Part shown: one piece after another, positions 10,979-24,434 of the stretch
Layout of the letters: each line of letters starts with the position of its first letter
Position numbering within the stretch: position 1 is the first letter of the stretch
NCBI GenBank assembly: GCA_947258875.1
Contig: CAMYKB010000028.1
Span: 912 to 36,435 of the forward strand
Direction: 5' to 3'
From: an uncultured Gammaproteobacteria bacterium
GTDB taxonomy: Bacteria; Pseudomonadota; Gammaproteobacteria; CAMYKB01
Length of the DNA stretch: 35,524 nucleotides
Position numbers and translations under genes: made by a program
Notes under the pieces: model-generated
Told to the model about the DNA's origin: nothing
What the model saw: only the letters and a program-made list of their open reading frames with translations
Database searches by the model: none

Positions 10979-11944
10979 TCACACCAGTCTGTCATGGGGT
11001 TCACGCCCTGCAAAAAGAGCATCAAGATTATCCAATGCCCGAAAGCCCATCGCATCCCGCGTCTCGCGCGCTGCGCTGCCAATATGGGGCAGCAGGAAGC
11101 TGTTCTGCAGGTCCCGGTAGCCCGGATTGATATCGGGTTCATTATTGAACACATCCAGCCCCGCAGCAAACAACTTGCCTGAACGTAACGCCGCAATCAG
11201 GGCCTCGTCATCAATAATAGCACCGCGGGCGGTATTGACGACCACCGCCCCATCTGGGAGTAGCGCAATACGCCGGGCATTCAGTAAGTGATGTGTTTCC
11301 GGCGTAGCCGGACAGTGGATCGACAGGAAATCACAGTGTGGCAGCAAAGCCTCAACGGTCTCATAGTAAGTGGCGCCGGTCTCATACTCAGAGCCGAGTC
11401 TGTGTCGGTTGTAATAATGAATTTCCATATCGAAGCCACGGGCGCGACGTGCCATGATCTGCCCAACTCTCCCCATGCCGAGAATCCCAAGCCGCTTGCC
11501 GGTCACGCCGATACCCAGATTATAAGTCGGGCTCCACTCAGACCAGGTATTGGTGCGTATCAACTGCTCACCCTCGTGGGCCCGACGGGCCGCGCCCAGT
11601 AGCAATAGCATAGCGATTTCCGCCGTGGCATCACTCAGGACTTCAGGCGTATTAGTGACTATAATTCCACGGGCCTTAGCAGATTCAAGGTCAATATGAT
11701 CGTAACCCACTGAATAACTGGCAATTGCGCGTACGCTCTCTGGCAAGTGCTGTATCACGTCGGCCGAGAGCTTCTCCGTGTGGGTAGGAATAATCGCATC
11801 CGCGCCGGCCGCAAGCTTGATCAGTTCATCTCCGGAATAAACCCGATCATCCTGGTTGAAACGCGCCTCATAATCATGCCCCAGACGCTCCTCAACTGCC
11901 TGGGGCAGTTTCCGGGTTACCAAAACAACGGGTTTATCCTGCAT
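10979..11944 (-). CDS. gyaR: D-glycerate dehydrogenase / glyoxylate-hydroxypyruvate reductase
   Basis: This 321-residue D-2-hydroxyacid dehydrogenase has the NAD-binding motif GMGRVG at residues 156-161 and the catalytic trio Arg240 (NTARGAIID), Glu269 (DVFNNEP) and His287 (LLPHIGS). The SYSVGYDHID segment (76-85) is typical of glyoxylate/hydroxypyruvate reductases. It would interconvert glyoxylate with glycolate or hydroxypyruvate with D-glycerate in the cytoplasm. It lies upstream of dctP on the same strand, separated by about 160 bases. With the GarR-like reductase it points to glycerate as a hub metabolite. Substrate specificity within the family is broad. Confidence 0.87.
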   Translation of the reverse strand: MQDKPVVLVTRKLPQAVEERLGHDYEARFNQDDRVYSGDELIKLAAGADAIIPTHTEKLSADVIQHLPESVRAIASYSVGYDHIDLESAKARGIIVTNTPEVLSDATAEIAMLLLLGAARRAHEGEQLIRTNTWSEWSPTYNLGIGVTGKRLGILGMGRVGQIMARRARGFDMEIHYYNRHRLGSEYETGATYYETVEALLPHCDFLSIHCPATPETHHLLNARRIALLPDGAVVVNTARGAIIDDEALIAALRSGKLFAAGLDVFNNEPDINPGYRDLQNSFLLPHIGSAARETRDAMGFRALDNLDALFAGREPHDRLV

Positions 11945-12810
11945 AAGACTTCGCTGTAGCTATCCTGATAATGCATACTTAATACTATTGATATTATAGA
12001 AAGTAGCATACTCAGAAACTGCAGGGTTTCAACGACCTTCTCTGCCGGATAGTGAAAGCTGATACGCAAGCCACTCATTCCTTGGCGTTTAGGTACCCAT
12101 AAACTGAGATATTTGAGATATATCGACTGGCCAGGTGAATCTGTCATTTACCCAGAATATATTCATCAACCGCATGAAAAACCAGAAGTGTAATCGTACC
12201 AAAGAGAAAAATCAGAATGACAGTCGAGTCCGAAACATGATGCTGCCAAATTAAAGATAAGTGAGAGGACCGTTTCCAAGCGGGCCGAGACGATGGCATC
12301 ACGTCCGTATAGGCGCTAGTTATGGATGACAAGTTGAAGGACGCTATACAAGCCGCAGCATTGAGGACGTGTGATCACGCGCTACGGGCGTTCGATGACC
12401 GCCTACGGGCTACTAAAGCAGGAAGTTTTACTTCTTACTAGGAAATTGAAGATCAGTGCAATAACTTATTGATAACCTGAAGATATTTTTTGGAATCCCA
12501 TCACGAAAATACCTGTTCAGCCTATACTGATTTCTTCATTTTTAACCTATTGTTTTTTATAAATATATTTATTCTGGCATGGAGACTGCTCTTTAGTTAA
12601 ACGAATGTGCCATTCGCAACATTTATGTTCTACAGTTAAAGCCAGTAGCTAAAATAAACTAGTCAGGCAGCGTCCATGGCCCTGCTATGGACAGAGGCTG
12701 TGATCCAGATCTGTCAGCAAAGAGGTCTGAATTTAACCCATCATCAGTGCGTTTTAGCGCTGCTGAGACAATTAACGACGGCTTTATGATGCGTCGAAGG
12801 AAGGACGGTT
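11945..12810. other. Long intergenic region at the left edge of the conflict island
   Basis: About 870 bases carry no recognisable gene. Two minus-strand frames (11917-12147 and 12144-12332) touch through an ATGA overlap, and each has one hydrophobic segment. The upstream one relies on a TTG start and neither resembles a known protein; they may be decayed coding sequence. A small hairpin, GTCCAT/ATGGAC, lies at 12672-12692. The section around 12480-12660 is clearly more AT-rich than the flanking genes. No integrase, transposase or copy of the tRNA-Glu end was seen. Confidence 0.4.
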
Positions 12811-13146
12811 ATGAGCAGTAATCCACTGGCAGATCTCAATCCGATTAATTTCTTGCAAACAATCGTCAACCAAAGCGCCAAAGTGGCTAGCCAACACAGT
12901 TGTTCGAATTGCGGAAGCCACCTCAGTTATATCGAACACCTTGGCTTGGCCGCAAGCAGTTGTTCCGAAACGACATACCGTGAGCAAAACGAACTCGATA
13001 GCAAGATTAACCTGGCTGAGTATTCCGATCTGATCGTCAGCAGAAAAAATCAAATCGGCGGCACCTTCTCTCGCGCATCCAGTGAGCCCGGTGTAGTGCG
13101 TGTGGTTAACACACGTTGCATCAGGGGCGAGTCAAATAACCCATAA
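12811..13146 (+). CDS. Hypothetical protein with a CxxC motif
   Basis: This 111-residue ORF is not recognised. It is supported mainly by a strong AAGGA Shine-Dalgarno at 12801-12805, 5 bases before the ATG. Near residues 31-34 it has a CSNCG motif that could be half of a zinc-binding or redox site, but no second CxxC follows. The C-terminus overlaps the 3' end of the broken TIR-like gene on the opposite strand by about 26 bases, so the last residues may be post-rearrangement sequence. A 6-bp inverted repeat, CGTGTG/CACACG, lies at 13099-13115. It could be a truncated gene. Confidence 0.4.
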   Translation: MSSNPLADLNPINFLQTIVNQSAKVASQHSCSNCGSHLSYIEHLGLAASSCSETTYREQNELDSKINLAEYSDLIVSRKNQIGGTFSRASSEPGVVRVVNTRCIRGESNNP

Positions 13147-13395
13147 CCCGTGATTTATGCAACACCCACTGGTGTGTCGTCCAACCACCACTCGCCAGTT
13201 GTTCTCTCCGTGTCAGCAATCCTATGAGGGCATCTGCTTGATCGATGCGCTCTGTGACCGCATCCGTCAACTGATCACCACCCAGGTGCTCGCCTGTAAT
13301 CATTTTTATGTTATGGCTCGCTAGCAGCACTTCAATATTCGTAGCCAGTTCACGATCTTCGTTCCTGAACGCAAACCCAAGAAATATTTTTTCAT
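13121..13395 (-). pseudogene. Broken TIR-like domain gene
   Basis: The translated segment FLGFAFRNED...TERIDQADALIGLLTRRE...GGWTTHQWV looks like the first part of a TIR-like nucleotide-binding domain. It ends abruptly where such proteins normally continue with a conserved Glu-containing helix after the THQWV segment. Position 13395 has an ATG with a perfect GGAGGA at 13401-13406, but the following run of six A residues puts that ATG out of frame. One extra A would join it to KIFLGFAFR. The only in-frame start is a TTG lying within the Shine-Dalgarno region. The gene therefore appears frameshifted at its start and truncated at its end. A sequencing error in the A-run is the alternative explanation. 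Confidence 0.6.
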
Positions 13396-13546
13396 GCCCA
13401 TCCTCCAATAAGGCGGTATTGCCAGCTCATCATTCCCCTATTTATACCTTCAATAACCCGTGTCACCTGCTGTAATAAAGTAAACTCATTATTTATCCAG
13501 AGATTTCATACGATTGACCATTACGTATCAACCTACACTCAACCCT

Positions 13547-14875
13547 CTAACCCTGCGCTCTGCGTGATAACGCTTGCTCAACATCGCTTGCCCACTCGAT
13601 GTTCTCACCGCGCTTCTCGCGCGCATCGTGGATCAGTTGCAGATTGCGTGCCGTGGTTTCCGGCTCCCAGGACTCGCGTACGTTCGCCAGTGCATCAGAT
13701 AACGCGGCTGAAGCCCCCGCTTCGTCCTTGGCAAGCACCGCCAGCTCCAGTCTCGTGGCATGATCCCAATAATCGGGTTTGCCACTGGCAATACGTCGTT
13801 CCACTCCATAACTGACTACCGGGATCAGTTGTTCGCGGCGCGGGTCGGGAGGATCTTTCAGCTCCATTAGCGTAACCGCATTGATGCCCGGATAGGCATC
13901 GCGCCAGTCTGCCTCGAAACCTTTCAGGTAGGCAGCGATGGCCTTATCCAGTAACCCACGCGCCAGTAATTCATCGCCTGCGTTAAGTGCTGCCTCCCAG
14001 CGGTCTTTGTAGACGCGCCCTAGGATGCCGTAGGTCTCACTACTCGGCCCGCGTTGCGCTATTAAATCAGTGAGAATCTGTTCCGCCTCCTCACCGTGCC
14101 CGGCGCGGTTGAGCGCCAGACCCAATTGCTCTTGCACCATCACGGTTGCAGCCAGCGGCGATGACATCTTAGGTACCAGCGCGATCATATCGTCCCAGGA
14201 TTTAACTGCGCGATAAGACAGAAACAAATCGATCACTACTGCGGCCTCAGCATCGGCAATGTCACCCAGTTCGGTCGCTACCGTCCTCACCGCATCGACA
14301 CCTTGTTTGCGCGCCTGCGCCAGTCGTCGCTTCATCGACTCGGAATAATGGACGCGATCACGAAATACATCAGTCTTCAAACGCTGGATATCGGGGAATC
14401 CCTCGACCATTTGGAATACGGGGCTATCCGGGGCTGCATCGCGGGCTTCACGCAGTTGATCCGCAAGCGCGGATTGCGTGCTTGTCATGTTATCCGGCTT
14501 GCCACCTGCATCTAACCGGTAAGGCAAGGCACGCAGAGGGGCCACATCAAACGGTAGCTGTCCCGCGCCCTCGGCAAACAGCAATACGGTGCTGTGTGGC
14601 CGCACTGCATGGCGAAGACCCAGCTCATAGAATACATTGGCATTAGCTGTCGTGAGGTCACATACGGCGTACTCACAGAGGATAAGGCGTTCGAACATGG
14701 GCTTATGGATAATGCCCCCGGTCATTTCTTCATCCGCGCGCAGCGGTTCGAGATCTGCTGCTTCAATAGCCGGCCTGATAAGTTCCTGATAAACCGCATC
14801 AAAATCGACCAGCTGCCCACCGCTGGTCGGCTTTTGACCGAAAGGCATCAAGACAAAACAGAGTGGATTGGGCAT
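13547..14875 (-). CDS. TIR-like / deoxyribosyltransferase-like domain fused to TPR-S (DUF4071)
   Basis: This 442-residue protein has two parts. Residues 5-120 form a Rossmann-like domain starting CFVLMPFG, with FERLILCEYAVCDLTT and NVFYELGLRHA. The last carries Glu84, as in nucleoside 2-deoxyribosyltransferase- and TIR-related nucleotide-processing domains. Residues about 190-430 are helical, with TPR-like pairs. They match the TRAFs-binding/TPR-S (DUF4071) family through ETYGILGRVYKDR, YPGINAVTL and DYWDHATRLE. The same block recurs in the protease encoded at 20565-22313. Family context points to biological conflict or immunity, with the N-terminal domain sensing or cleaving a nucleotide and TPR-S acting as scaffold. 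The enzymatic role is inferred. The ATG gives MPNPLCFVLMPFG, a normal start for this domain. Confidence 0.8.
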   Translation of the reverse strand: MPNPLCFVLMPFGQKPTSGGQLVDFDAVYQELIRPAIEAADLEPLRADEEMTGGIIHKPMFERLILCEYAVCDLTTANANVFYELGLRHAVRPHSTVLLFAEGAGQLPFDVAPLRALPYRLDAGGKPDNMTSTQSALADQLREARDAAPDSPVFQMVEGFPDIQRLKTDVFRDRVHYSESMKRRLAQARKQGVDAVRTVATELGDIADAEAAVVIDLFLSYRAVKSWDDMIALVPKMSSPLAATVMVQEQLGLALNRAGHGEEAEQILTDLIAQRGPSSETYGILGRVYKDRWEAALNAGDELLARGLLDKAIAAYLKGFEADWRDAYPGINAVTLMELKDPPDPRREQLIPVVSYGVERRIASGKPDYWDHATRLELAVLAKDEAGASAALSDALANVRESWEPETTARNLQLIHDAREKRGENIEWASDVEQALSRRAQG

Positions 14876-15047
14876 TTATTTTTCCGTTAGCCAGTGTAAA
14901 CGATCGCCAGCTTCACCAGGACTGCAGCCAACTAAGAAAAATTCATCGGCCACCATCTTTATCTATGCCTTCCTTTGCAGCAGCCTTAAGACATGATTAT
15001 TCTGCTTGGCATGTTAGAAGTATTGGTTTCAAGACCTCTTTGTTTAG

Positions 15048-16745
15048 TTATAGTGGACTATCTTTGCCTTGTACAGCCGAAGACAATGCCGAAACCAGAC
15101 CTGCAATATGTTGAGTGCCCAAACGTGACAATCGGAAAAGCCTCAGTTCTACTTCAGAAGACTCTATATTAGGCGAGTCGGCACTCACCTGGTCCCAGGC
15201 GTTGGTGATAGTATTCTCCAAAAAACCATAGTCTGTAGTATCATCTATCGCCAGAACAACGCGCTCAAGAGGCACCACATTGATAAGTTCAGTGAGTTCG
15301 CGTACACAGCCGGCATTTTGTGGTGAGAAGCCACGCAGGTCCATAAATACGACGTCACTTTCTTCGACAAGCCTGGATAACACCATCTCCCAGGTATCGT
15401 CGTAGCAGAAAAAATCATTGACACGATAGCGACTGTCAAAATCCGGTTTTACGTCAAGTTGTAACATCCTGCTATCGAGCATTGCTTTTCCATCAATAAA
15501 CAGGCGCGAAATTCTACCGCTCAGAAATTCCAGGAACTCCTGTGGCTCGACAGTGGTTGTTGCCAGATCCGGCCCTGCAATAAGTTGCACGCTGCCGGCG
15601 TAACGCCAACGCTTTGTGATCGCGTCGAATAACCTCTCACTCCGTTTCCCCAATGAAAACACCCTTAACAGCAGGAGTCTTGCGTTGAATGTTTTAGAAT
15701 TTTGTTGTGCCTGAACTGTTCTAAATCCAATCCATACTGTCATTTTATAAGCAATAAATGCAGCCAACCCGGATAAGACCCAGAGTGGCGCTTCGAATAC
15801 GAGGCCAATTGACTGGCTAATAGCAAACAGCACCCACAGCGCATCGAGTGTGATCGATTGGTCGCTGAGTTTTTTAGATTGATAACCCCACCGGATCCAG
15901 GTGACTGCCAGCCACCCTACCCCCGCAAACATCAAAAATCCACCAATGACGATTCCGATAAAGGTAGCCGAGGCACTCAGTCCGATACTGGACCCCACAT
16001 TAGAGATTATGCGAAGAAGGCCTGCATTAGCCCCGGCGACCGCCAACGCTATCACTGATCCTGTGGCGGATATAACCATAAAAGTCAGTACCATTGGGCC
16101 TACCGCACGAATACGCCGAGCAAGGAATGCAAACAAGAGTACAGTTGGCGGGAGATTCGTTATAGTCCATAACATAACTATCTGATTCAGGGTGAGTTGT
16201 GTACTTCTGGCAACGGCTACCGACGTGATTAGCAAAAGGATAACGAAGTAGATAAATCCAGTCATCAACATGACGCGCCGCGTCGATGCAGCTATGAAAT
16301 TCACTGTCAGTACTACCGGCCAGGCGTAAACCCAAAAAACCATGAGATAGCGAACCACAGACACTTCCATGTTGCCTGAAACCAAAACGGCCATGACCAT
16401 AACCAGCGTGAACACAACTCCAGCAAACCCGTAGATCAATGCGGCGCGCCAGGCACCATGTTGCGCACATGTGTATATCGGAGATTTCAGGACCCGCCCT
16501 GTTTCTTCGACACGCAACTTCAGCCCAACACCCACTGTCGGTGCGGCATGCGAGCCTGTATGTAACGTGTTCCGGTTACCCTCGCCTCTCACATGAGATC
16601 GTCTCCCCATTGTCCTAAGAACTGCGCGGCGATATAACCACAAGAGAAGCAGAGAGCATGGAAATGCAACAACTGACGCAACCAGAATGACGAAGGGTAA
16701 TTGCCCAGTCAAAGCAAGTGTAAGTGGATCAGCGTTCTGGGACAT
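15048..16745 (-). CDS. Polytopic membrane protein with cytosolic Rossmann-like C-terminal domain
   Basis: This 565-residue protein has one N-terminal helix (about 15-38), a polar loop, and then roughly seven to nine more hydrophobic helices between 100 and 340. From about residue 355 comes a soluble domain of around 200 residues with the markers FDAITKRWRYAGSVQLIAGPDLA (373-394), FFCYDDTWE (445-453) and SDVVFMDLRGFSPQNAGCVREL (463-484). The alternating strands and helices, and the VVFMDLRGFS strand followed by a Cys/Glu helix, suggest a TIR/SLOG-like nucleotide-binding fold. I cannot name the family. AGGAG precedes the ATG. It is divergent from the DUF4062 gene and may be the membrane effector or sensor of the island. 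Confidence 0.8.
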   Translation of the reverse strand: MSQNADPLTLALTGQLPFVILVASVVAFPCSLLLLWLYRRAVLRTMGRRSHVRGEGNRNTLHTGSHAAPTVGVGLKLRVEETGRVLKSPIYTCAQHGAWRAALIYGFAGVVFTLVMVMAVLVSGNMEVSVVRYLMVFWVYAWPVVLTVNFIAASTRRVMLMTGFIYFVILLLITSVAVARSTQLTLNQIVMLWTITNLPPTVLLFAFLARRIRAVGPMVLTFMVISATGSVIALAVAGANAGLLRIISNVGSSIGLSASATFIGIVIGGFLMFAGVGWLAVTWIRWGYQSKKLSDQSITLDALWVLFAISQSIGLVFEAPLWVLSGLAAFIAYKMTVWIGFRTVQAQQNSKTFNARLLLLRVFSLGKRSERLFDAITKRWRYAGSVQLIAGPDLATTTVEPQEFLEFLSGRISRLFIDGKAMLDSRMLQLDVKPDFDSRYRVNDFFCYDDTWEMVLSRLVEESDVVFMDLRGFSPQNAGCVRELTELINVVPLERVVLAIDDTTDYGFLENTITNAWDQVSADSPNIESSEVELRLFRLSRLGTQHIAGLVSALSSAVQGKDSPL

Positions 16746-17256
16746 ACATCTCCTATACTTAATTCATCCTCAGTGCCGTTGCTTGTTTCTGGCAGATCAG
16801 CATTCACGAACAAGTTTGAATACTTCGAACCATAGTTCCTGGTGCCTCACAATGAGAACATGAACTAGATCACTGGCCGCCAAGTACTTTTTTATAGCGC
16901 CAGATATGAGTATATCCTGAACCTGAGTGAACTTAGATAAATATGATAACTAACACAAGGCTGCGACAAACGATGATATCTATGCAATCTGCAATAACCA
17001 ATAAACTCTTACCGTAATGTTTATCACCAAATCGGATAGCCATAACACACAAAGATTACCGGTCGATAATAGCGCTCATTCTTAATTTAGGGTTAGTTTA
17101 ATAACCGTCCATCTCTGCAATGTGCCAGCAACACGGTAATCTGGAATAATCACAAAGTTGTACTATTCTCTTAGTACTAGATTTATTTTAGACATCACGT
17201 GATCTCGCAAGCAACCGTTCCGATTCCGCCAGCTATCGTCATGGAGTGACTTGAAA
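16746..17256. other. Divergent promoter region between two membrane-effector genes
   Basis: This AT-rich stretch of about 510 bases separates the minus-strand polytopic protein gene from the plus-strand DUF4062 gene. It must hold both promoters. No convincing -35/-10 pair, operator or RNA gene was identified by eye, and no ORF longer than about 60 codons with a ribosome binding site is present. Confidence 0.45.
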
Positions 17257-17940
17257 ATGAAAAGCAAACCACTCGTCTTCATCAGCTCAACATCCGATTT
17301 GCAGGATGAACGAACCACAATCGCGGCTTCACTAAAATCTGATTACGAACCTTATCTCTATGAAGAAGATCGGGCGCGCCGAAAATCACCAGAGGATCGT
17401 TGTCAGGAAGTCATTCAGCACTCTGAGGTGTTTATCGGAATTGTCGGAGAAGAATACGGCTCATCTTATAAAGACACTGATCCGCGTTCAATTTGCGAGT
17501 GGGAATTTGATCAGGCCAGAGAAAATAAGGACATCGCTATCATGATGTTGTTGGCGAAAACACCTGAACCGACCGCAATAGACCCCAAACAAAAACGCTT
17601 TCGAGACAAGGTGACGCAATTTAGAAGTGGTGTCTGGTGCCGATTCTTCGAGTCGACCCAGGAACTCGTTATTTTGGTGCGGAAATCGCTGACCACATGG
17701 CTGGTCGAATATTTTGTACAATCCCGGGAAAACGCTGATAAACGACGAGATTGGCTAAGCCACCTGATTGCCTGGCTTGGAATCAGCACCGTTGGGGCGC
17801 TCGCGCTGGTCATTGGCGCCAATTTTATTTTCAACTTTTTATCCCCAAACCACACCATCGCACTCTGTGGACTGACTTTATCAGTACTTGTTTTATTGCT
17901 GCTGCTGTATTTTACCGAGGTAGGAGGAAAAAATGTCTGA
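17257..17940 (+). CDS. DUF4062 domain protein with two C-terminal membrane helices
   Basis: This 227-residue protein begins with a DUF4062 (TIR-related) domain: VFISSTSDLQDER at 7-19, VFIGIVGEEYGS at about 58-69 and CEWEFDQA at about 80-87, where a Glu lies at the TIR-like active-site position. Two hydrophobic helices, about 168-190 and 198-218, anchor it with the domain in the cytosol. DUF4062 proteins are frequent in predicted immunity loci, often as N-terminal sensor or effector modules. ATG 17257 sits 10 bases after GGAG (17243-17246); TTG 17251 is closer but less likely. Its stop lies within the start region of the next gene (8-base overlap), so the two are translationally coupled and probably form a complex. 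Confidence 0.85.
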   Translation: MKSKPLVFISSTSDLQDERTTIAASLKSDYEPYLYEEDRARRKSPEDRCQEVIQHSEVFIGIVGEEYGSSYKDTDPRSICEWEFDQARENKDIAIMMLLAKTPEPTAIDPKQKRFRDKVTQFRSGVWCRFFESTQELVILVRKSLTTWLVEYFVQSRENADKRRDWLSHLIAWLGISTVGALALVIGANFIFNFLSPNHTIALCGLTLSVLVLLLLLYFTEVGGKNV

Positions 17941-18685
17941 AACCGAACATGATCAGGATTTTTCACTTTTATCTGAGCGCATAGCCAACACAGTCGCACG
18001 TGAAGACAAACGACGACGTAGTATTCTCACTCTTTTCATACTGCTGACATTAGTTCCGATCGCTATCGGTGCATACATATTCATGCGCGGCAAAGATGAG
18101 TCAGGCTGGATACAAAAAACGGCTCAGCAGACGGCCTCACAAGAAATAATGAGTATACGCCCACTTATAGATCAGACACGTGAATTAAGTGAAGAACTAC
18201 CTGAAATACGACGACTTAGCGAACAGCTACCACAACAACAACAGCTACTCACAAGCGTCCAGAATAAACAGGATGCGCAAGCCAATGAATTGGAAACATT
18301 TCGCCCACAAATACAACAACTCACTAAACAATTACCAGATCAGGAACTACGCTTATCTACACTTGAGCAAAGGCAGGATAGTAACGTTGCTCTACTCCAA
18401 CGCCAATGGGAAGAATCACTTAATGAGATACGAAAGCAGAACACGACGAACCTAAAACGATTAGAAGAACGCCTCAAAGCGGCCCCTACTATTGATCCTG
18501 GTTTTGCCAGGGAGCTACGTGAAATCAGGAAACAACTCGACACACAAAACAAAATGATTACCCAGATCTCCGCAGAACAGCGCTCGTTTGCTTCACGTAT
18601 TGGCCAAAACACGGATAAATTGAATGAACTTGATCGCAGGCTAGAAATACGAAGAATTGAGCCTTCAGTTATAACTCCTCGCTAG
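17933..18685 (+). CDS. Membrane-anchored coiled-coil protein, partner of the DUF4062 protein
   Basis: This 250-residue protein is not assignable to a named family. It has a short charged N-terminus with RREDKRRR-like basic residues, one membrane helix at about 34-52 (LTLFILLTLVPIAIGAYIF), and then some 190 residues of predicted coiled coil. Repeats of the type LSEELPEIRRLSEQLPQQQ and LTKQLPDQ are regularly interrupted by Pro. The basic N-terminus suggests an inside N-terminus, which would place the coiled coil in the periplasm. It overlaps the DUF4062 gene by 8 bases. It may sense envelope change and signal to the DUF4062 domain across the membrane; this is inference. Confidence 0.75.
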   Translation: MSETEHDQDFSLLSERIANTVAREDKRRRSILTLFILLTLVPIAIGAYIFMRGKDESGWIQKTAQQTASQEIMSIRPLIDQTRELSEELPEIRRLSEQLPQQQQLLTSVQNKQDAQANELETFRPQIQQLTKQLPDQELRLSTLEQRQDSNVALLQRQWEESLNEIRKQNTTNLKRLEERLKAAPTIDPGFARELREIRKQLDTQNKMITQISAEQRSFASRIGQNTDKLNELDRRLEIRRIEPSVITPR

Positions 18686-18761
18686 AGGGATCACAGCTTG
18701 AAAGTCATTATGTGCCTATACTAAAACAAGATGTTTCAGTCCTTAGCTCTAGTCGAGACAT

Positions 18762-18810
18762 CTTAATCTGACAGCCACCTTTGAGATTAAGCGGTAGCTG
18801 TCAGATTAAG
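18762..18810. terminator. Perfect 14-bp inverted repeat between convergent genes
   Basis: CTTAATCTGACAGC at 18762-18775 pairs perfectly with GCTGTCAGATTAAG at 18797-18810 around a 21-base loop. It lies between the coiled-coil gene (plus) and the TIR gene (minus), where a bidirectional terminator is expected. It is not followed by a T-run on either strand, so it may instead be a transcript-stabilising hairpin or a protein-binding site. Confidence 0.5.
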
Positions 18811-18908
18811 TTAGGATTACAGCGCTTCTATCACTTATCACCGCATCCAGTGGTCATTAAGACATGTTCAACGCTCGTATTCACGAAGTACAGCAGCCTG
18901 CCGTGACA

Positions 18909-20276
18909 TCAGTCCAATTTAGCGAGAAGCTCAAGATGCCGTTTCGCAAAAACACACAAGAATTGCTTATTAACTCGTCGTATTTCATCCAAAGCCACAG
19001 TAACTTGCTTCGGATTATTGTCGCTTATCGCTGTCATGAGCTCGCCGCGTACCTCTGCCCACCTGTTAGAGGCTTCGCGGATCACATCCTTATCATCTTG
19101 CTCATCAAACAGTTCTTCAATGTTTTCTATTACTTTAAAGCCACAATCAATCGCCTTGAGCTCGACTTTTTTGATCGACATTTTTACTTTATTCAGATAT
19201 TTGGATACTTCTTCATCCGTTGCAGGATTCATCATCAGACGCCGTATTTTAAAACTATGCTCGTCAATAACGCCCCATCTAAAATCCTGCGCCATCTGCA
19301 GGAGATCACAAATACTTCCAAGGTTACCTCTAACCTCTGGCTTACATTGTCCGGTGGCCTTGATAAGCAGTATCTTGAAACAAATCGACTGATCAGACAT
19401 CTTATCCAAACGGTAGACGACCGGGCGATAGAGCTGCTGTTTGTCACCCGGAGGATGGAACCTCGAGATAGGATATCTCGGCACCCTCTGTAGACATGCA
19501 TCCTGCATGATACACCCGAGAGCATCTATCCATCCGAGTGATTCTTCATCTAACTGTTGCTTGATGTCAAACCATTCACACCGGTCAGTGTTCAGGTTAA
19601 ATAGCTTCAACGACGAGATGTCTGAAGTAACCTCCGCTTTGTCGTCGATACACCCGTCTTCTCTGAGCTTCGTTATTTGGTTCCCCCCCAAAGTAAGGCG
19701 GAAAAAATTTGTCCACCAGAACTGCTCTGGTTTAGTACCGAAAGCATCAACAATCTCCGCAGCGGTACTGGTAAGGGTATCGCGGTAATCTTCTACAAGG
19801 TCGTGTCGGATCGCAGGCACTCCCTCGCGAGGCGGCTCTCCGTACAACTGCCCCAATAGATTTACTACATTATGCTCGTCAGCCGGAACAGTCTTCCAAC
19901 GCACAATCGGATTGGGTGGCACAATGCCAGGGCTATGCAAACAGATTGGCGCGTGCTTACCTGCTTTAATGCCTGCGGAGAAATAGCCGGTCTCATAGAG
20001 ACACCAGTCCCACTCCGCAGATGGGTCAGTATACAATAGAAATAGCCAGTCGGAACGCTCAAGTGCGGCATGCACTTCATCATCCCAGTTATAGCCAAAC
20101 GCGATGTTTTCGGAAAGAAACATTTCTAGTTGGACGCCCCCAAGAACGCCAAGTTTCTTCTTGATCGTTTCAGCAAGCTTCTTGTCTTTTAGTTTGTGAC
20201 TAATAAAAATATGTAATTTTCCGTCATCATCGACCGCCCGATGAGGAATCTCTGTGACTGCTGCTACAGTGTTCAT
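18909..20276 (-). CDS. TIR-domain protein with uncharacterised C-terminal region
   Basis: This 455-residue protein has an N-terminal TIR domain at about 20-135: LHIFISHKLKDKKLAETI, then FLSENIAFGYNWDDEVHAALERSDWLFLLYT, then WDWCLYETGYF, with candidate NADase Glu95. The remaining 300 residues are mixed alpha/beta, then helical near the C-terminus, and are unrecognised; they may sense a trigger or bind a partner. Bacterial TIR proteins commonly deplete or convert NAD+ when an immune system fires. ATG 20276 was chosen because GAGG sits 6 bases upstream and the TIR fold then begins at residue 20; an upstream TTG (20327) has no support. It lies downstream of the protease gene on the same strand, about 290 bases away. 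Confidence 0.83.
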   Translation of the reverse strand: MNTVAAVTEIPHRAVDDDGKLHIFISHKLKDKKLAETIKKKLGVLGGVQLEMFLSENIAFGYNWDDEVHAALERSDWLFLLYTDPSAEWDWCLYETGYFSAGIKAGKHAPICLHSPGIVPPNPIVRWKTVPADEHNVVNLLGQLYGEPPREGVPAIRHDLVEDYRDTLTSTAAEIVDAFGTKPEQFWWTNFFRLTLGGNQITKLREDGCIDDKAEVTSDISSLKLFNLNTDRCEWFDIKQQLDEESLGWIDALGCIMQDACLQRVPRYPISRFHPPGDKQQLYRPVVYRLDKMSDQSICFKILLIKATGQCKPEVRGNLGSICDLLQMAQDFRWGVIDEHSFKIRRLMMNPATDEEVSKYLNKVKMSIKKVELKAIDCGFKVIENIEELFDEQDDKDVIREASNRWAEVRGELMTAISDNNPKQVTVALDEIRRVNKQFLCVFAKRHLELLAKLD

Positions 20277-20564
20277 AATACACCTCACATATGCTGCATA
20301 CCTCGTCAACTTGGTATTTGGAGGCAACCCTGTACTTTTCCGCCTTTAGCTACTCAGGGTGCATAGTTGACAGGCATAGCTTCAGAATCCTTCTTGACTC
20401 ATATATCGTAGTCCTCTGATGGATTCAGGAAAAGTAAGAAATTCGCATGAAGTGTGTAACTTATTACCTATCCATAGGGAAAGTTGGTGAAGACCAATCG
20501 CTACAAGTAAAGATACAAAAAAACATGCGTTGCCGTACTCTGTGGGTTCAGCTTTACCCTGTAT

Positions 20565-22313
20565 TTATCCCAGCTTGGCTGCAACCGCATCTAGAATGTT
20601 TTGGAAATAAAGGCCTTCGTTGGCTGGATAGGTTCCGGCTTTGCCATTCAGCCTCTCCATGTTCATGCCGCCGGCATGGTGCAACGCGAGCAAGTCCCAT
20701 TGCTGGTTGAATACGGGACTGCCCGAGCTGCCACCCTCGGTGGGTGCCCGGTAATGCACCTTGGGTTTCTCGTGATCGAGAAGAAGGTTGTCATCTATGG
20801 AGTAGCACAGGCCGCCTCCACGGGGATGACCTATGACGTAGACTCGCTGGTTCTTGCCCACCAGCGGAAGCCGCTTGGCAATCGGATAGGGATTTTCATG
20901 TTCGACGAGTGATTGAAGGCTCAGGATTGTGCAGTCCAATTCGGTCCGGGGCGAACTGAAGAGGATCTTATCTACCTCGAACTCCTTGTTTGGATCTTTT
21001 GCCTCGAAACGGATTCGGACCTCGTCCGCGGGTAGAGCAGCCGGCATGGAACTCTGCTCCGCCAGATCATTGCTGATTACATGTGCGTTAGTAACCACCA
21101 CCCATTTCTGCTCGATGCTTGGGTGCACATCCGCACCGCGGATAAGGAAACCGCTGCCACAACCGTTACCAGCGCGGTCACATATTTGGGCTACTCCGGC
21201 AGCCCGATCCAGTCCCATACGATACCACTGGAAGGTCTTGTAGCGCTCCTTGCCGAGGATTTGTTCAAACTGCTTGTCCGCCTCCAACGCTGCAGCGGTA
21301 GCGAGGTTTCGTGTCGGATTTTCGATCTCCACCCGACCGCCCTCCTGGCGCAGCAACGCCGCGCGCAGCAGGTGAAGGATCTGCGCATGCTCCTTTTTGT
21401 CATCATCCAGTTTCCAGACTTCCTCGAACTGGCGCAGGGTACTGGCGTATTCGAAGGAATCGGCGTATTTGTTTTCCTGGGTATACTTGAGAATCCACTC
21501 GAGGGCTTGCGGGTAATCCTTTAATGCCAGGCAAGCCTCTCCTGCAGTTGCGTAATCCCACAGATCGGTTTTCTTTTTTGACGTGATCCGTTTCAGGATA
21601 GTTTTTGCGGTTGTCGTAGCGTTGGGAAAGCCCTTGGAGAGAGGCATCTTGTCGCGTTTCGCGCGCTCCAGCAGGGCCACGGTATTAATCCCGTGCCAGA
21701 TGTGGTCCTGCTTTGCCGCATACACCCCGGCATAGTCTGAAACCGCATCCTCCAGACGCTGTCGGATTATGACGCCCGGGCGTTTGTCTGCGGCAGCATC
21801 CATGTACATCTGTTTCCGCGCGCGACCCATGAGGCCCCGGGTTTCCGCTAATTCGACATCATTGTCTTCTTCCAGGCAGTCTTGTTCCAAAATCTGGAGC
21901 ACACCGAGGCCAGCTGTGATGTAACCTAGATCGAGCATCGCCTGGGCATATTGGCGACGAATGTTCGGCTCATCCTGTCCGGTCTGTATCAACACATCAG
22001 CGACCTCGATGATCAAATCGAAATACCGCTTGCGACGCAGGGTACTGAGAATGGTTTTTGACTCAGCGAAGGGATAGGGCGTCGCGCGTGACCGCAGGTG
22101 AACGGCCAGCTTGCTACACAGCTCTTCAGCCCGTGGCCGGTCGAAAGTACCGAGCGCAATTTTCAACTCCTTGACAAAGCTCTTGGGATGCGTGGCAATA
22201 TTCTCCCGGACATGTTCCACGAGTTTTCTGGATATGATTTCTATCTCAGTGACGTCATACGCTCTGGCTGCAGCATCGATCTGATCGAGGAGACCCTTTA
22301 TGTTGCCGGCCAT
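20565..22313 (-). CDS. TPR-S (DUF4071) scaffold fused to a trypsin-like serine protease
   Basis: This 582-residue protein joins a helical N-terminal part with a C-terminal S1-type protease. Residues 95-300 carry TPR-S landmarks: AETRGLMGRARKQ, WHGINTVALLER and DLWDYATAGEA. These align block by block with the TIR-like/TPR-S protein at 13547-14875. The protease at about 380-575 has His411 (VVTNAHVI), Asp460 (TELDCTIL) and nucleophile Ser530 (TEGGSSGSPVF), so the triad is complete. With no signal peptide it should act in the cytosol, probably held inactive by TPR-S until triggered. ATG 22313 has GGAG 5 bases upstream. It starts 13 bases after the alpha/beta-hydrolase stop, so the two form one operon. 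The longer frame from 22427 overlaps that gene and is unlikely. Confidence 0.87.
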   Translation of the reverse strand: MAGNIKGLLDQIDAAARAYDVTEIEIISRKLVEHVRENIATHPKSFVKELKIALGTFDRPRAEELCSKLAVHLRSRATPYPFAESKTILSTLRRKRYFDLIIEVADVLIQTGQDEPNIRRQYAQAMLDLGYITAGLGVLQILEQDCLEEDNDVELAETRGLMGRARKQMYMDAAADKRPGVIIRQRLEDAVSDYAGVYAAKQDHIWHGINTVALLERAKRDKMPLSKGFPNATTTAKTILKRITSKKKTDLWDYATAGEACLALKDYPQALEWILKYTQENKYADSFEYASTLRQFEEVWKLDDDKKEHAQILHLLRAALLRQEGGRVEIENPTRNLATAAALEADKQFEQILGKERYKTFQWYRMGLDRAAGVAQICDRAGNGCGSGFLIRGADVHPSIEQKWVVVTNAHVISNDLAEQSSMPAALPADEVRIRFEAKDPNKEFEVDKILFSSPRTELDCTILSLQSLVEHENPYPIAKRLPLVGKNQRVYVIGHPRGGGLCYSIDDNLLLDHEKPKVHYRAPTEGGSSGSPVFNQQWDLLALHHAGGMNMERLNGKAGTYPANEGLYFQNILDAVAAKLG

Positions 22314-22326
22314 CGCTGCTCCAGCA

Positions 22327-23274
22327 TTACAATGTGAGCAGCTTCGACAGATGGTTGCACAATGCCTGCTGCCCGTAATACTTATAGCTGCTATGGCGCC
22401 ATTTTCCTGAGTTGCGTACTTTCTCATCGATCACCACTTGATTTCCGCCCTTCTGGTAGTCGTTCTTGATGCGGGCATCAAAGGCCACCGGGTCAAGACG
22501 GTCGTAGACGTTGACCCAGTCGCCGGCAACTCTGTCCGACGGGAAAGCGTCGCGCTTGTCGTAATTCGGCTTAAAGTTGTCGTGCACCTCGCTAATACCG
22601 AGCGGACTACCCACGGTCATGTAGGCGCTGATCGAAGGGCAGTCGGGAACGTTTTTAAGGCAATCGTAGGAAATCACCGTGCCCATGCTATGGCTGACCA
22701 CCACATGCGGCCCTTCCCGATTCGCGGTATCTTGTTTTAACTGGTCCACGAAAAGCCGACGGATATGATCCTGCACCTGGTATTCCTCGCCGGGTCGCGG
22801 GGAGAATTTAGCGTTAAACAGGTAGTGATGCACGTCCTTCAGCAGCGCTTTCATAACCCGCCGCTTGATGAACCATGGCAAAGGAATCGCTTCGAAGTTG
22901 AGTGCCTCCAGTTCGTCTTCATTCCCCTCCAGAGGAGGTGGCGCGTAATGATCGCCCTCCGGGGATTCTATGTCGAAACCGAGTTTTTCGCGAAAGGACT
23001 CAACGAAGGCCTTTTCTTTGGCGGGCAGGTCCTCGACCCACGCCAGCTCCTCGTCTGTTGCCGCTGTGCCCAACCCCTCTTCCACGCTTTCAAAATCAGC
23101 ATCTGGGGCCACTGGCTCGGCATACATCACATCGGCCCAGTAGACCATCGAGGTGGAGACACCACCCGCGGCGAGATCCAGGCCTCCCTGTGCCAGGTAG
23201 GCTTCCCAGTTTTCGAGCAATTTTTCCTTAGGCGGCTTGTTGGCGATACCGTGTATAAACGTGACATGCGGCAT
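22327..23274 (-). CDS. Alpha/beta hydrolase of the conflict operon
   Basis: This 315-residue cytosolic alpha/beta hydrolase has an oxyanion-loop FIHGI at 6-10, nucleophile Ser196 in VSHSMGT, Asp261 in DRLDPVAF and probable catalytic His294 in WRHSSYKYYG. Between the oxyanion loop and the nucleophile lies an acidic insert of about 100 residues that may form a lid. The fold suggests an esterase or lipase; membrane lipids are a plausible target in an immunity context but nothing shows this. ATG 23274, with GGAG 8 bases upstream, is preferred over TTG 23280. It is the first gene of the operon with the TPR-S protease and lies about 235 bases from the end of tRNA-Glu. Confidence 0.83.
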   Translation of the reverse strand: MPHVTFIHGIANKPPKEKLLENWEAYLAQGGLDLAAGGVSTSMVYWADVMYAEPVAPDADFESVEEGLGTAATDEELAWVEDLPAKEKAFVESFREKLGFDIESPEGDHYAPPPLEGNEDELEALNFEAIPLPWFIKRRVMKALLKDVHHYLFNAKFSPRPGEEYQVQDHIRRLFVDQLKQDTANREGPHVVVSHSMGTVISYDCLKNVPDCPSISAYMTVGSPLGISEVHDNFKPNYDKRDAFPSDRVAGDWVNVYDRLDPVAFDARIKNDYQKGGNQVVIDEKVRNSGKWRHSSYKYYGQQALCNHLSKLLTL

Positions 23275-23470
23275 ATGCAATTCTCCTCTTTAGAAGATCG
23301 GCCGGGCCCGCTAAACGTTGCGCGCATTAAGTTAACCATACAACACATTAAAAATATGTCCACCAAAGCTATGGCCCCGTAGGCGCCAGCCACTGGGATT
23401 TGGCTGATAAAATCGCTCCCGGCAATTCTATCAAGCCCGCCCGGGATTCTCGTCAGCTCGGAAACCCCAC

Positions 23471-23505
23471 AAAAAAAGCCCGCCTAAATAATCAGGCGGG
23501 CTTTT
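23471..23505 (-). terminator. Rho-independent terminator of tRNA-Glu
   Basis: A 9-bp stem, AGCCCGCCT at 23477-23485 with AGGCGGGCT at 23494-23502, has an 8-base loop and is followed on the minus strand by a run of T (A-run at 23471-23477 on plus). It lies just past the 3' end of tRNA-Glu on the same strand and clearly ends that transcript. Confidence 0.9.
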
Positions 23506-23509
23506 GTGT

Positions 23510-23585
23510 TGGCGTCCCCAAGGGGATTTGAACCCCTGTTACCGCCGTGAAAGGGCGGTGTCCTAGGCCTCTAGACGATGGGGAC
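23510..23585 (-). tRNA. gltT: tRNA-Glu (anticodon TTC)
   Basis: This 76-base tRNA on the minus strand begins GTCCCCATCGTCTAGAGGCC, has the anticodon loop CCCTTTCACG with anticodon TTC, and the T-arm AGGGGTTCGAATCCCCT. The acceptor stem closes as GTCCCCA/TGGGGAC, the discriminator is G, and CCA is encoded. The sequence is close to the bacterial tRNA-Glu consensus. It has its own promoter and terminator. Its 3' end faces the conflict island, the arrangement left when islands integrate at tRNA ends. The symbol is generic. Confidence 0.96.
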
Positions 23586-23640
23586 CTGACTCATGACCGG
23601 ATCAAAATGAGGTATTTTTGCCCGGTAAAACAAAGCGCGC

Positions 23641-23669
23641 AATGTACGGCCCTGCCCCTCAGTTGTCAA
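23641..23669 (-). promoter_or_regulatory. Sigma-70 promoter of tRNA-Glu
   Basis: On the minus strand a perfect -35 TTGACA (23669-23664) is followed after 17 bases by a -10 TACATT (23646-23641). A GCGCGC discriminator comes next, as in promoters of stable RNAs under stringent control. Transcription would start near 23634, giving a leader of about 50 bases before tRNA-Glu. Confidence 0.85.
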
Positions 23670-23696
23670 GTAATACACTACTAATGGAGTCTTGCC

Positions 23697-24434
23697 TCAA
23701 TCCGCCACTGCCTGTACAGGTTGAAGCTTTGTTTTCAGGCGGTTACGCCGCCTTCTCACGGTCGTGAGGAAAAACAATGTGATACCGCTGAGAACGGCCG
23801 TGGCACCGATTATCGAGGCACTTTTTAGCAGCCAGTTATTAATGTCATCACGTTCATCGTAATCCATGATGTGCAGCATCCAGAGCCAGTCAAATATACG
23901 CCAGAGCGTATTGCGTCGGGCGGTGATCTCACCAGTATTGGCGTCGATATATATCGCTGTATTTTTGCTGTTATCGAAGCTGACACGCCAGGCTGGCAAC
24001 GCCTTGCGGTACTCACCGGTCTCAGGCTGTTCGATGAGCGCGATTTCGCGTATTGAGGCATCGCCAGTGAAGTCCAGCACAGCGATTTCACGAGCCTCAG
24101 CCTCCGTAATAGGCGATGCCAGCAGACCCGATGCAGCATGAAAACGCTCTTTCTCAAGCCTATCTGCCCCGGTGACGATGTAATACACCTGATCATTGAT
24201 CATCTTGATGTGAATTTCCTGCACAACTTCAAAAGTACTGCGTTCAAGGATGTCCATTGGCGACAGATAATCTGTCTTCGGAAGTGCAGTCTCATACACC
24301 GCAGAATCCAATTCGCCGCGCACATTGTGGATGCTGATCCAGGAGAAATACACTCCAGTCAGCATCCAAAGCAGGACCTGGATGCCAATTCCGACAGCAA
24401 TCCATTTGTGCAGATTTCGAATAAATTTCAGCAT
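23697..24434 (-). CDS. PepSY domain membrane protein
   Basis: This 245-residue protein has an N-terminal membrane helix (about 11-33, following NLHKWIAVGIG), a periplasmic PepSY-type region at about 115-180 with LPAWRVSFDNSKNTAIYIDANTGEI, and a C-terminal helix at about 205-228 followed by a basic tail. The RIFDWLWMLHIMDY segment before the last helix is characteristic of PepSY-associated membrane proteins, which often occur near iron-uptake or redox genes. Its role is not known. A possible Fur-like sequence lies upstream. It is the first gene past tRNA-Glu. Confidence 0.83.
   Translation of the reverse strand: MLKFIRNLHKWIAVGIGIQVLLWMLTGVYFSWISIHNVRGELDSAVYETALPKTDYLSPMDILERSTFEVVQEIHIKMINDQVYYIVTGADRLEKERFHAASGLLASPITEAEAREIAVLDFTGDASIREIALIEQPETGEYRKALPAWRVSFDNSKNTAIYIDANTGEITARRNTLWRIFDWLWMLHIMDYDERDDINNWLLKSASIIGATAVLSGITLFFLTTVRRRRNRLKTKLQPVQAVAD

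Follow-up and report, generated by a model that had tools for sequence, protein, structure and literature searches.

We have analysed a stretch of 35,524 nucleotides from an uncultured gammaproteobacterium (hereafter the window), which corresponds to positions 912–36435 of one contig in a genome of 3.01 Mb and 67 contigs. An earlier sequence-only reading had described a group of its genes as a multi-effector conflict island built around the TPR-S scaffold, in which an alpha/beta-hydrolase figured as a bystander. Our results support the conflict-system reading of these genes and move its centre: the hydrolase and a serine protease carrying a TPR-S scaffold almost certainly form a functional pair, and the linkage of the two is well supported. 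A single conserved multi-effector island was not borne out; what is conserved is this pair, together with the occurrence of the other TPR-S protein of the island (NDT-TPR-S) near TPR-S effectors. The genes and sites on which the argument rests are as follows.

22327..23274, minus strand: alpha/beta-hydrolase of 315 amino acids, first gene of the pair (conserved residues, weak Pfam matches, AlphaFold2 model)
22894..23121, minus strand: acidic variable insertion of the hydrolase, residues 52–127, proposed gate (acidity, low predicted local distance difference test score, pLDDT)
23089..23091, minus strand: Glu62 of the hydrolase, start of a conserved Glu-Ser, proposed cut site (E in 19 of 21 rows)
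20565..22313, minus strand: TPR-S protease of 582 amino acids, scaffold at about residues 1–370 and V8-like serine protease at about 374–582 (Pfam, PDB, AlphaFold2)
13547..14875, minus strand: NDT/TIR-like domain fused to TPR-S, 442 amino acids, proposed origin or co-sensor of an NAD-derived signal (Pfam, ASK1 matches)

An alignment of five TPR-S proteases was used to scan genome contigs, the search being keyed to a pair of short peptide patterns taken from the protease domain, and 31 loci were obtained (loci and genomes are designated here by L and G numbers). Near-full-length relatives are present at 27 of them (L041–L067), while the other four (L068–L071) match the protease domain only. The 27 loci belong to Gamma-, Beta- and Alphaproteobacteria, Bacteroidota, Planctomycetota, Acidobacteriota and one actinomycete. 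At 14 of these 27 the hydrolase lies immediately upstream in the same direction, one fusion (L051) and one broken frame (L060) included, and it is thus the commonest partner of the TPR-S protease, though not the sole one. Plasmids give a similar picture: 55 records match the protease and, among the 25 listed, the six that cover at least 55% of the query all hold the hydrolase too, three of them being near-identical Sinorhizobium plasmids. In the four plasmids that were opened, the hydrolase ends 9–12 bases upstream of the protease. The window has 13 bases between the hydrolase stop and a protease start at 22313, and because this gap resembles that of the four plasmid relatives, 22313 is a likelier start than 22427. 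Among 398 genomes of the phylum, the hydrolase finds a relative with an E of 1e-8 or lower in 17, that of the window included; in the two others whose match falls below 1e-90, a TPR-S protease stands beside the hydrolase. The two parts can also reside in one chain, as in the planctomycete locus L051, where hydrolase, TPR-S, protease and a calcineurin-like domain share one frame. A comparable protein of Hyphomicrobium (L067) combines TPR-S (4.7e-5), protease and a GDSL-lipase-like domain (2.8e-5), the TPR-S and GDSL matches being just below cut-off. No relative of the TPR-S protease was found in viral contigs by short peptide patterns of a single sequence.

Some of these data weigh against a strict two-gene system. 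The association is not obligatory, as the hydrolase is not beside the protease at 13 of the 27 loci, two of which start at a contig end (L044 and L053). Loci without hydrolase include one with TIR-SLOG, TIR and NDT-TPR-S genes around the protease (L046), one with an amidase neighbour (L052), one with an endo/exonuclease-phosphatase neighbour (L061) and one at which a DUF4062-like gene overlaps (assigned by eye, with no such Pfam match; L065). The distance matrices of hydrolase and protease correlate well (Mantel r 0.87 for 21 pairs and 0.77 for 14 dereplicated pairs, L060 and six near-identical pairs being left out of the latter; p 1e-4 in both cases), a correlation which is partly expected from shared descent or joint transfer and shows joint travel, not contact.

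The protease domain was correctly recognised in the sequence-only reading as trypsin-like with a complete triad: H411, D460 and S530 are present in all 32 rows of an alignment from which L045 and L054 were left out. A PDB search places it nearest, among solved families, to the V8/glutamyl endopeptidases (1qy6, 8.5e-14). The AlphaFold2 model (pLDDT 88.8, predicted template modelling score (pTM) 0.78) consists of 19 helices followed by a beta-rich protease, and Foldseek matches it to the protease domains of FAM111A, DegS and V8. The positions equivalent to V8 T164 and H184, which we take to be the residues responsible for Glu specificity, are occupied by T525 in 30 of 32 rows (Ser in the other two) and by H545 in all 32. 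On this basis, the protease is predicted to prefer Glu at P1 or, more broadly, residues with an acidic or amide side chain. The wider wording is chosen because Spl proteases and exfoliative toxins, which appear in the same match list, share parts of the V8-type pocket; this overlap speaks against a strict Glu assignment.

The candidate catalytic residues of the hydrolase, Ser196, Asp258/Asp261 and His294, are kept in all 21 aligned rows (L054 was left out of this alignment). Its ATG at 23274 is preceded by AGGAG. Pfam gives only weak alpha/beta-hydrolase matches, below cut-off, on 22327–23280, and the AlphaFold2 model, based on a 14-row alignment, reaches a pLDDT of 76.5 and a pTM of 0.80. Foldseek retrieves esterases and lipases, none of them below E 0.001, the best being an S-formylglutathione hydrolase (1.6e-3). 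Between the strand at residues 40–45 and the helix at 134–152, the fold is interrupted by an insertion of 52–82 residues (20 rows), which is more acidic than the remaining protein in 19 of the 20 rows. The pLDDT drops below 50 at residues 57–73, 109–117 and 121–130, and again at 290–293.

Within this variable insertion, one short motif stands out. In columns 52–127 the weighted conservation exceeds 0.8 only at E62 (0.92), E87 (0.85) and P54 (0.81), with E128 reaching 0.92 at the end; E128 may be structural, and it is also kept in a caspase-paired relative (see below). Misalignment of an E-rich loop does not explain Glu62, as judged by shuffling the ungapped loops: of 13 dereplicated sequences, 10 have Glu-Ser at a distance of 10 or 11 residues past the conserved Tyr51, while 20,000 shuffles reach at most 6 (p at most 5e-5) and the next dipeptide reaches 5. 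Glu alone is found at this spacing in 12 of the 13. The broken-frame hydrolase of L060 was left out of the loop counts; near-identical rows and L038 were left out of the Glu-Ser test. At L038 (6536–20596), on a Sinorhizobium meliloti plasmid, the genes in a row are those for a DNA/RNA non-specific endonuclease, a hydrolase closely related to that of the window, PAS, CHAT, an S8 peptidase and a trypsin-like protein.

More distant relatives of the hydrolase are paired with a different type of protease. A tblastn search with one of them (L079) returned 60 plasmid records, 16 of which were opened, and a caspase-family gene lies directly upstream of the hydrolase relative in ten of the 16 (seven by annotation; L114, L115 and L118 by a profile built from the annotated ones). 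The other six have CHAT downstream (L116), a trypsin-like domain in the same protein (L120), NACHT downstream (L126), an apparently solitary hydrolase (L125) or no recognised partner (L119 and L124). Caspase pairing is seen as well at L039 and at three genome loci (L075, L079 and L080). Neither profile detects a protease within the flank of about 1.5 kb at L077, L081, L084 and L087. When seven paired caspases were submitted to Pfam, Peptidase_C14 was found in four (L104, L113, L115, L117) and no family in those of L039, L118 and L121, for which the call rests on annotation or on the home-made profile. All 14 intact caspase-paired hydrolases (about 12 distinct; L078, which has an internal stop, was left out) carry K/R/M-Gly in the loop, eight of them K/R-Gly and six M-Gly, compared with none of the ten other relatives compared, L077, L081, L084 and L087 among them; L116 has K-R-S. 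The Streptomyces protein of L120 (2412–4400) consists of a trypsin-like domain and then the hydrolase, both in a single chain in which TPR-S gives no match. Both versions of the pair occur at one site of Agrobacterium plasmids: the TPR-S pair of L036 and L037 has a ParB-like gene on one side and a DEAD/DEAH helicase gene on the other, and the caspase pair of L117 and L122 is flanked by the same two genes. In the parts compared between L117/L122 and L036, ParB is 92–93% and the helicase 88–91% identical. This site carries either version of the pair and is a plasmid defence hotspot.

The TPR-S scaffold is common to the protease and to NDT-TPR-S, as had been claimed from the sequence. Pfam TPR-S (PF20308, cut-off 27.6 bits) scores 95.8 bits in 13547–14875 and 38.5 in the protease; the contrary result, one of the two proteins without a significant TPR-S match, was not obtained. 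The former gives 1.4e-48 for MAP3K_TRAF_bd and 2.6e-27 for TPR-S, and the frame 20565–22427 gives 7.4e-17 for Trypsin_2, 1.8e-9 for TPR-S and 2.9e-6 for MAP3K_TRAF_bd; the MAP3K_TRAF_bd matches, too, exceed the Pfam cut-off. Profile comparison of 15 protease scaffolds with 10 NDT-TPR-S sequences yields a probability of 99.4 (E 1.1e-21) over 208 columns, and the motifs first aligned by eye (ETYGILGRVYK/ETRGLMGRARK, PGINAVTLME/HGINTVALLE and DYWDHAT/DLWDYAT) are present in both proteins and in register in this comparison. Of 369 genomes of the class, 59 contain a TPR-S match that exceeds the cut-off.

The kinship of TPR-S with ASK1/MAP3K is likewise borne out, directly for the 13547–14875 family and indirectly for the protease. 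As a single sequence, NDT-TPR-S matches the human ASK1 (MAP3K5) structures 8qgy (2.2e-5) and 5ulm (7.4e-5), and its family profile matches them at 7.2e-16 (249 profile positions) and 2.7e-15, respectively; the ASK1 scaffold is homologous to bacterial TPR-S. The scaffold profile of the protease alone does not reach ASK1 in the PDB, which is a point of doubt, and the link between protease and ASK1 therefore runs through the NDT-TPR-S family. ASK1 differs in that its output is a kinase. Residues 1–120 of 13547–14875 are presumed to be NDT/TIR-like, with a weak PADLOC TIR match (1.9e-6). Glu84 in the YELG motif of this part is invariant (10 of 10 rows); in a second aligned stretch, which at 1.9 bits is not significant alone, ASK1 has His where YELG has Glu.

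NDT-TPR-S recurs near a second, effector-bearing TPR-S protein at five loci (the window, L046, L053, L099 and L100), the effectors being protease, patatin and CHAT plus LCAT. Its gene overlaps that of a TPR-S protease by 4 bases in L053 and lies 1.4 kb from one in L046; in L099 (6553–10642) it is 7 bases upstream of a TPR-S-patatin phospholipase, and in L100 it lies on the same strand as an LCAT-CHAT-TPR-S protein, at a distance of 3.3 kb and two genes. The last two loci come from the two genomes of the class list, other than that of the window, in which two strong TPR-S matches (above 59 bits) lie within 6 kb (G248 and G276), and were picked because of these paired matches, so that no rate can be derived from them. 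The patatin protein of L099 is a lipase placed directly on a TPR-S scaffold, and the L100 protein (13617–19283) is a chain of 1888 amino acids with LCAT-like, CHAT and TPR-S domains. Weaker TPR-S pairs appear in the class list, for example in G122 and G246 (L110). SLATT/DUF4231 membrane proteins adjoin or are fused to NDT-TPR-S in L101 and L106, and annotated DUF4231 neighbours are found elsewhere. The neighbours can thus co-occur, the hydrolase with the protease and NDT-TPR-S with TPR-S effectors, and the opposite outcome named in the sequence-only reading, homologues that never co-occur with the neighbouring genes, was not obtained. We consider it somewhat probable that the NDT-TPR-S protein of the island is linked to the hydrolase/protease pair.

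These data suggest the following mechanism. The trigger is most likely an NAD-derived nucleotide, whose level would rise upon infection and which enzymes of the NDT/TIR type, the NDT-TPR-S protein among them, would make; alternatively, one TPR-S domain could contact another directly. This infection-dependent signal would be received by the protease through its scaffold, and the V8-like protease, thereby switched on, would cut its partner hydrolase, probably after Glu62. Before cutting, the hydrolase would be inactive or restrained by its disordered acidic insertion; once freed, the enzyme, probably a lipase or esterase, would damage the membrane or another essential ester pool, its target being most likely lipid, and the outcome would be killing or arrest of the infected cell of the abortive-infection type. 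In this scheme we infer ligand, activation, cleavage, gating, substrate and antiviral role. That the protease acts on the hydrolase seems to us evenly balanced, and the whole chain, in which a TPR-S-gated protease activates the hydrolase as an abortive-infection effector module, is a good possibility somewhat short of even. On the side of doubt, the low pLDDT of the insertion may reflect the thin alignment of 14 rows, and Glu62 could be a docking motif rather than a cut site. A loop Gly is also found in hydrolase relatives without a caspase, in L119, L120 and L126 (A-G, P-G and L-G), and the Cys motif of the caspase had to be rejected as a predictor of K/R versus M in the loop, since SDACR occurs in both groups. 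More tentative still is the broader proposition of a second class of protease-gated antiviral proenzyme, with an acidic gate loop, a Glu-specific protease and an ASK1-like scaffold for NAD signals, whose chassis would have been re-wired at least twice (V8-like proteases with E-S, caspases with K/R/M-G) and whose versions would interchange at the Agrobacterium site; we regard it as possible and rather doubtful.

An unlikely but reasonable competitor is that the two enzymes belong to one system and act independently upon the same trigger, the protease degrading phage or host proteins and the hydrolase attacking lipids. The intact triad of the hydrolase fits such parallel effectors, as do the differing neighbours of other TPR-S proteases (amidase, nuclease-like, TIR) and the GDSL-lipase-like fusion, which look like interchangeable effectors; this reading leaves unexplained why Glu-Ser is conserved in a loop that otherwise varies, why the protease has a V8-type pocket, and why the same hydrolase superfamily accompanies proteases of two unrelated folds. 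The hydrolase could instead bind or inhibit the protease, or serve as the partner that neutralises it as a toxin, cleavage serving to remove the hydrolase; the conserved motif resembles a docking motif, and the upstream position and the coupling by 9–13 bases resemble an antitoxin-toxin order. Such an inhibitor, however, needs no Ser/Asp/His set kept in 21 of 21 rows, and L051 fuses hydrolase and protease with a further enzyme, and we hold this protective role to be quite improbable. An ordinary cellular protease and esterase without any part in defence would be very surprising in view of the patchy spread across phyla, the plasmid location, and the TIR and protease neighbours.

The remaining question concerns the rest of the island, whose other features are the following.

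18909..20327, minus strand: TIR protein of 472 amino acids, TTG start, with an ATG at 20276 (TIR_2 1.6e-7)
17251..17940, plus strand: DUF4062 (TIR-like) protein with a C-terminal hydrophobic region (DUF4062 1.1e-17)
17933..18685, plus strand: coiled-coil protein with one hydrophobic segment (by eye), overlapping the DUF4062 gene (low-specificity coiled-coil matches only)
15048..16745, minus strand: polytopic membrane protein with a soluble C-terminal domain (without meaningful Pfam match)
13121..13408, minus strand: short TIR-like frame (TIR_2 0.0047, below cut-off)
23510..23585, minus strand: tRNA-Glu (ARAGORN), bordering the hydrolase end of the island

All genes named in the sequence-only reading are present as open frames. 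The minus strand carries, within 13.1–23.3 kb, the short TIR-like frame, NDT/TIR-like-TPR-S, the polytopic membrane protein, the TIR protein, the TPR-S protease and the alpha/beta-hydrolase. The DUF4062 gene and the overlapping coiled-coil gene (17251–18685) lie between the two TPR-S genes on the plus strand, and one common transcript is therefore unlikely. Another reading is mere defence-island clustering, in which the two TPR-S genes and those for the TIR, DUF4062 and polytopic proteins each arrived on their own at a site next to the tRNA and have no joint function; we find this plausible while leaning against it. Along with the strand arrangement and the tRNA-Glu at the edge, such a clustering is favoured by the absence of relatives of the TIR and DUF4062 genes from the 338 other genomes of the class searched (at E 1e-10 and 1e-12, respectively). 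What it does not accommodate is the position of NDT-TPR-S adjacent to or near a TPR-S effector in four other loci, with the 4-base overlap of L053 and the 7 bases of L099.

The neighbour set proposed earlier thus stands as regards the presence of its genes (TIR, DUF4062/coiled coil, polytopic and hydrolase), and fails as regards TIR, DUF4062 and polytopic genes being regular members. Neither the TIR nor the DUF4062 protein nor the polytopic protein has a plasmid match at E 1e-5 (the TIR searches in class genomes and plasmids used 18909–20237 as query). The TIR and DUF4062 genes look like separate defence genes or signal makers, and the coiled-coil and polytopic genes likewise give the impression of standing apart. 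The DUF4062 protein has a weak SLATT_4 match (0.025, residues 164–223), below cut-off, and in one metagenome-assembled genome (L044 and L045, on two contigs) a DUF4062 relative lies on the opposite strand about 3–3.5 kb from a TPR-S protease. Only the tail domain of the polytopic protein recurs, 44% identical in L099 and 34% in L058. This tail (15048–15719 of the window), which has a conserved MDL..G..EL stretch and belongs to no Pfam family, is found beside a TPR-S protease in L058 and near TPR-S genes in L099. Its assignment as a TIR/NDT-like domain is not supported: profile comparison gives a probability of 2.6, although the aligned stretch falls on the expected DL..NA..EL segment. The short frame 13121–13408, probably a remnant, is 50% identical over 78 amino acids to the start of a 226-amino-acid protein directly downstream of the TPR-S protease of L041; in the window, it lies about 7 kb from the protease. 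At L041 (11909–13304), the closest relative, this protein and a pYEATS-TIR protein are located downstream of the TPR-S protease. A further relative of the short frame, without Pfam match, is found at L063, and an ankyrin protein neighbours the protease at L042.

As to the surroundings of the island, the genes scanned in the left flank encode dehydrogenases, an epimerase, an amidase and TRAP transporter components, and those scanned in the right flank an M16 peptidase, a TPR-repeat protein and a methyltransferase. The open reading frame 12811–13146 is without Pfam or PADLOC match. The island adjoins the tRNA, and its mobility finds no support in three checks: no direct repeats of at least 16 bases were found in 11900–24000, the 27-base tRNA end used as query occurs nowhere else in the window, and no integrase was found among the 20 window proteins scanned with Pfam. 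An 18-base inverted repeat (18762–18810, 94% complementary, 13-base spacer) follows the plus-strand coiled-coil gene and is a possible terminator. The 55 other genomes drawn as relatives of the source genome have only the class as common rank.

TPR-S conflict systems were reportedly predicted by Burroughs and Aravind in 2020 in the Journal of Bacteriology, with TPR-S as the reader of an NAD-derived signal. The genes of the window share with these systems TPR-S in both proteins, the NDT/TIR-like domain in one, the TIR neighbours and, in relatives, SLATT; our analysis adds the hydrolase as a conserved partner, the closeness of the protease to V8 and the motif in the gate loop. A literature search found no paper on the pair of hydrolase and TPR-S protease, which the 2020 paper may show or list.

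A parallel is found in HamM/HamA, Avs and canu, in which a trypsin-like protease or a caspase turns on the proenzyme form of a nuclease; HamM is cut within disordered insertions, at residues that are conserved (PMC12799240). With HamM/HamA, Avs, Lamassu and canu, our pair has in common an upstream effector gene, a trypsin-like protease fused to a sensor, correlated evolution, an insertion, here presumed to be disordered, with a conserved residue, and caspase versions (PMC12799240). The effector here is an alpha/beta-hydrolase, not an MBL nuclease, the sensor is TPR-S and cleavage is predicted; the pair therefore works like these protease-gated nuclease pairs and is not a member of them. Activation of other enzyme classes in the same way was proposed by Tuck et al. 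2025 (PMC12799240). Pairing of a caspase with an alpha/beta-hydrolase is known from VMAP ternary systems, in which the partner of trypsins is Trypco and that of caspases is the hydrolase (PMC7159879). The window shares with them a protease beside an alpha/beta-hydrolase and has a V8-like TPR-S protease instead of a caspase; none of the 20 window proteins submitted to Pfam matches MoxR or vWA, which mark VMAP/iSTAND ternary systems. As in the NucA-trypsin systems (PMC7159879), the hydrolase relative of L038 stands beside an annotated DNA/RNA non-specific endonuclease. Concerning Thoeris, no ThsA was found among the ten proteins scanned with PADLOC, and the TIR protein gave weak ThsB matches only. 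The DUF4062 family has been shown to consist of TIR-like NADases (Swarozyc; Osinski et al. 2026, PMC13174449). The protein of the window shares this Pfam family with Swarozyc and differs in its hydrophobic C-terminus and in having a coiled-coil neighbour, not a helical stalk protein.

The pair of hydrolase and TPR-S protease is thus a variant of known conflict-system designs, for which the prediction is focused on Glu62. Its meaning is suggestive: it would extend protease gating to an enzyme class acting on lipids or esters instead of DNA. In addition, a bacterial relative of the ASK1 scaffold placed directly ahead of a protease with a defined candidate substrate makes it possible to test the prediction that TPR-S receives signals.

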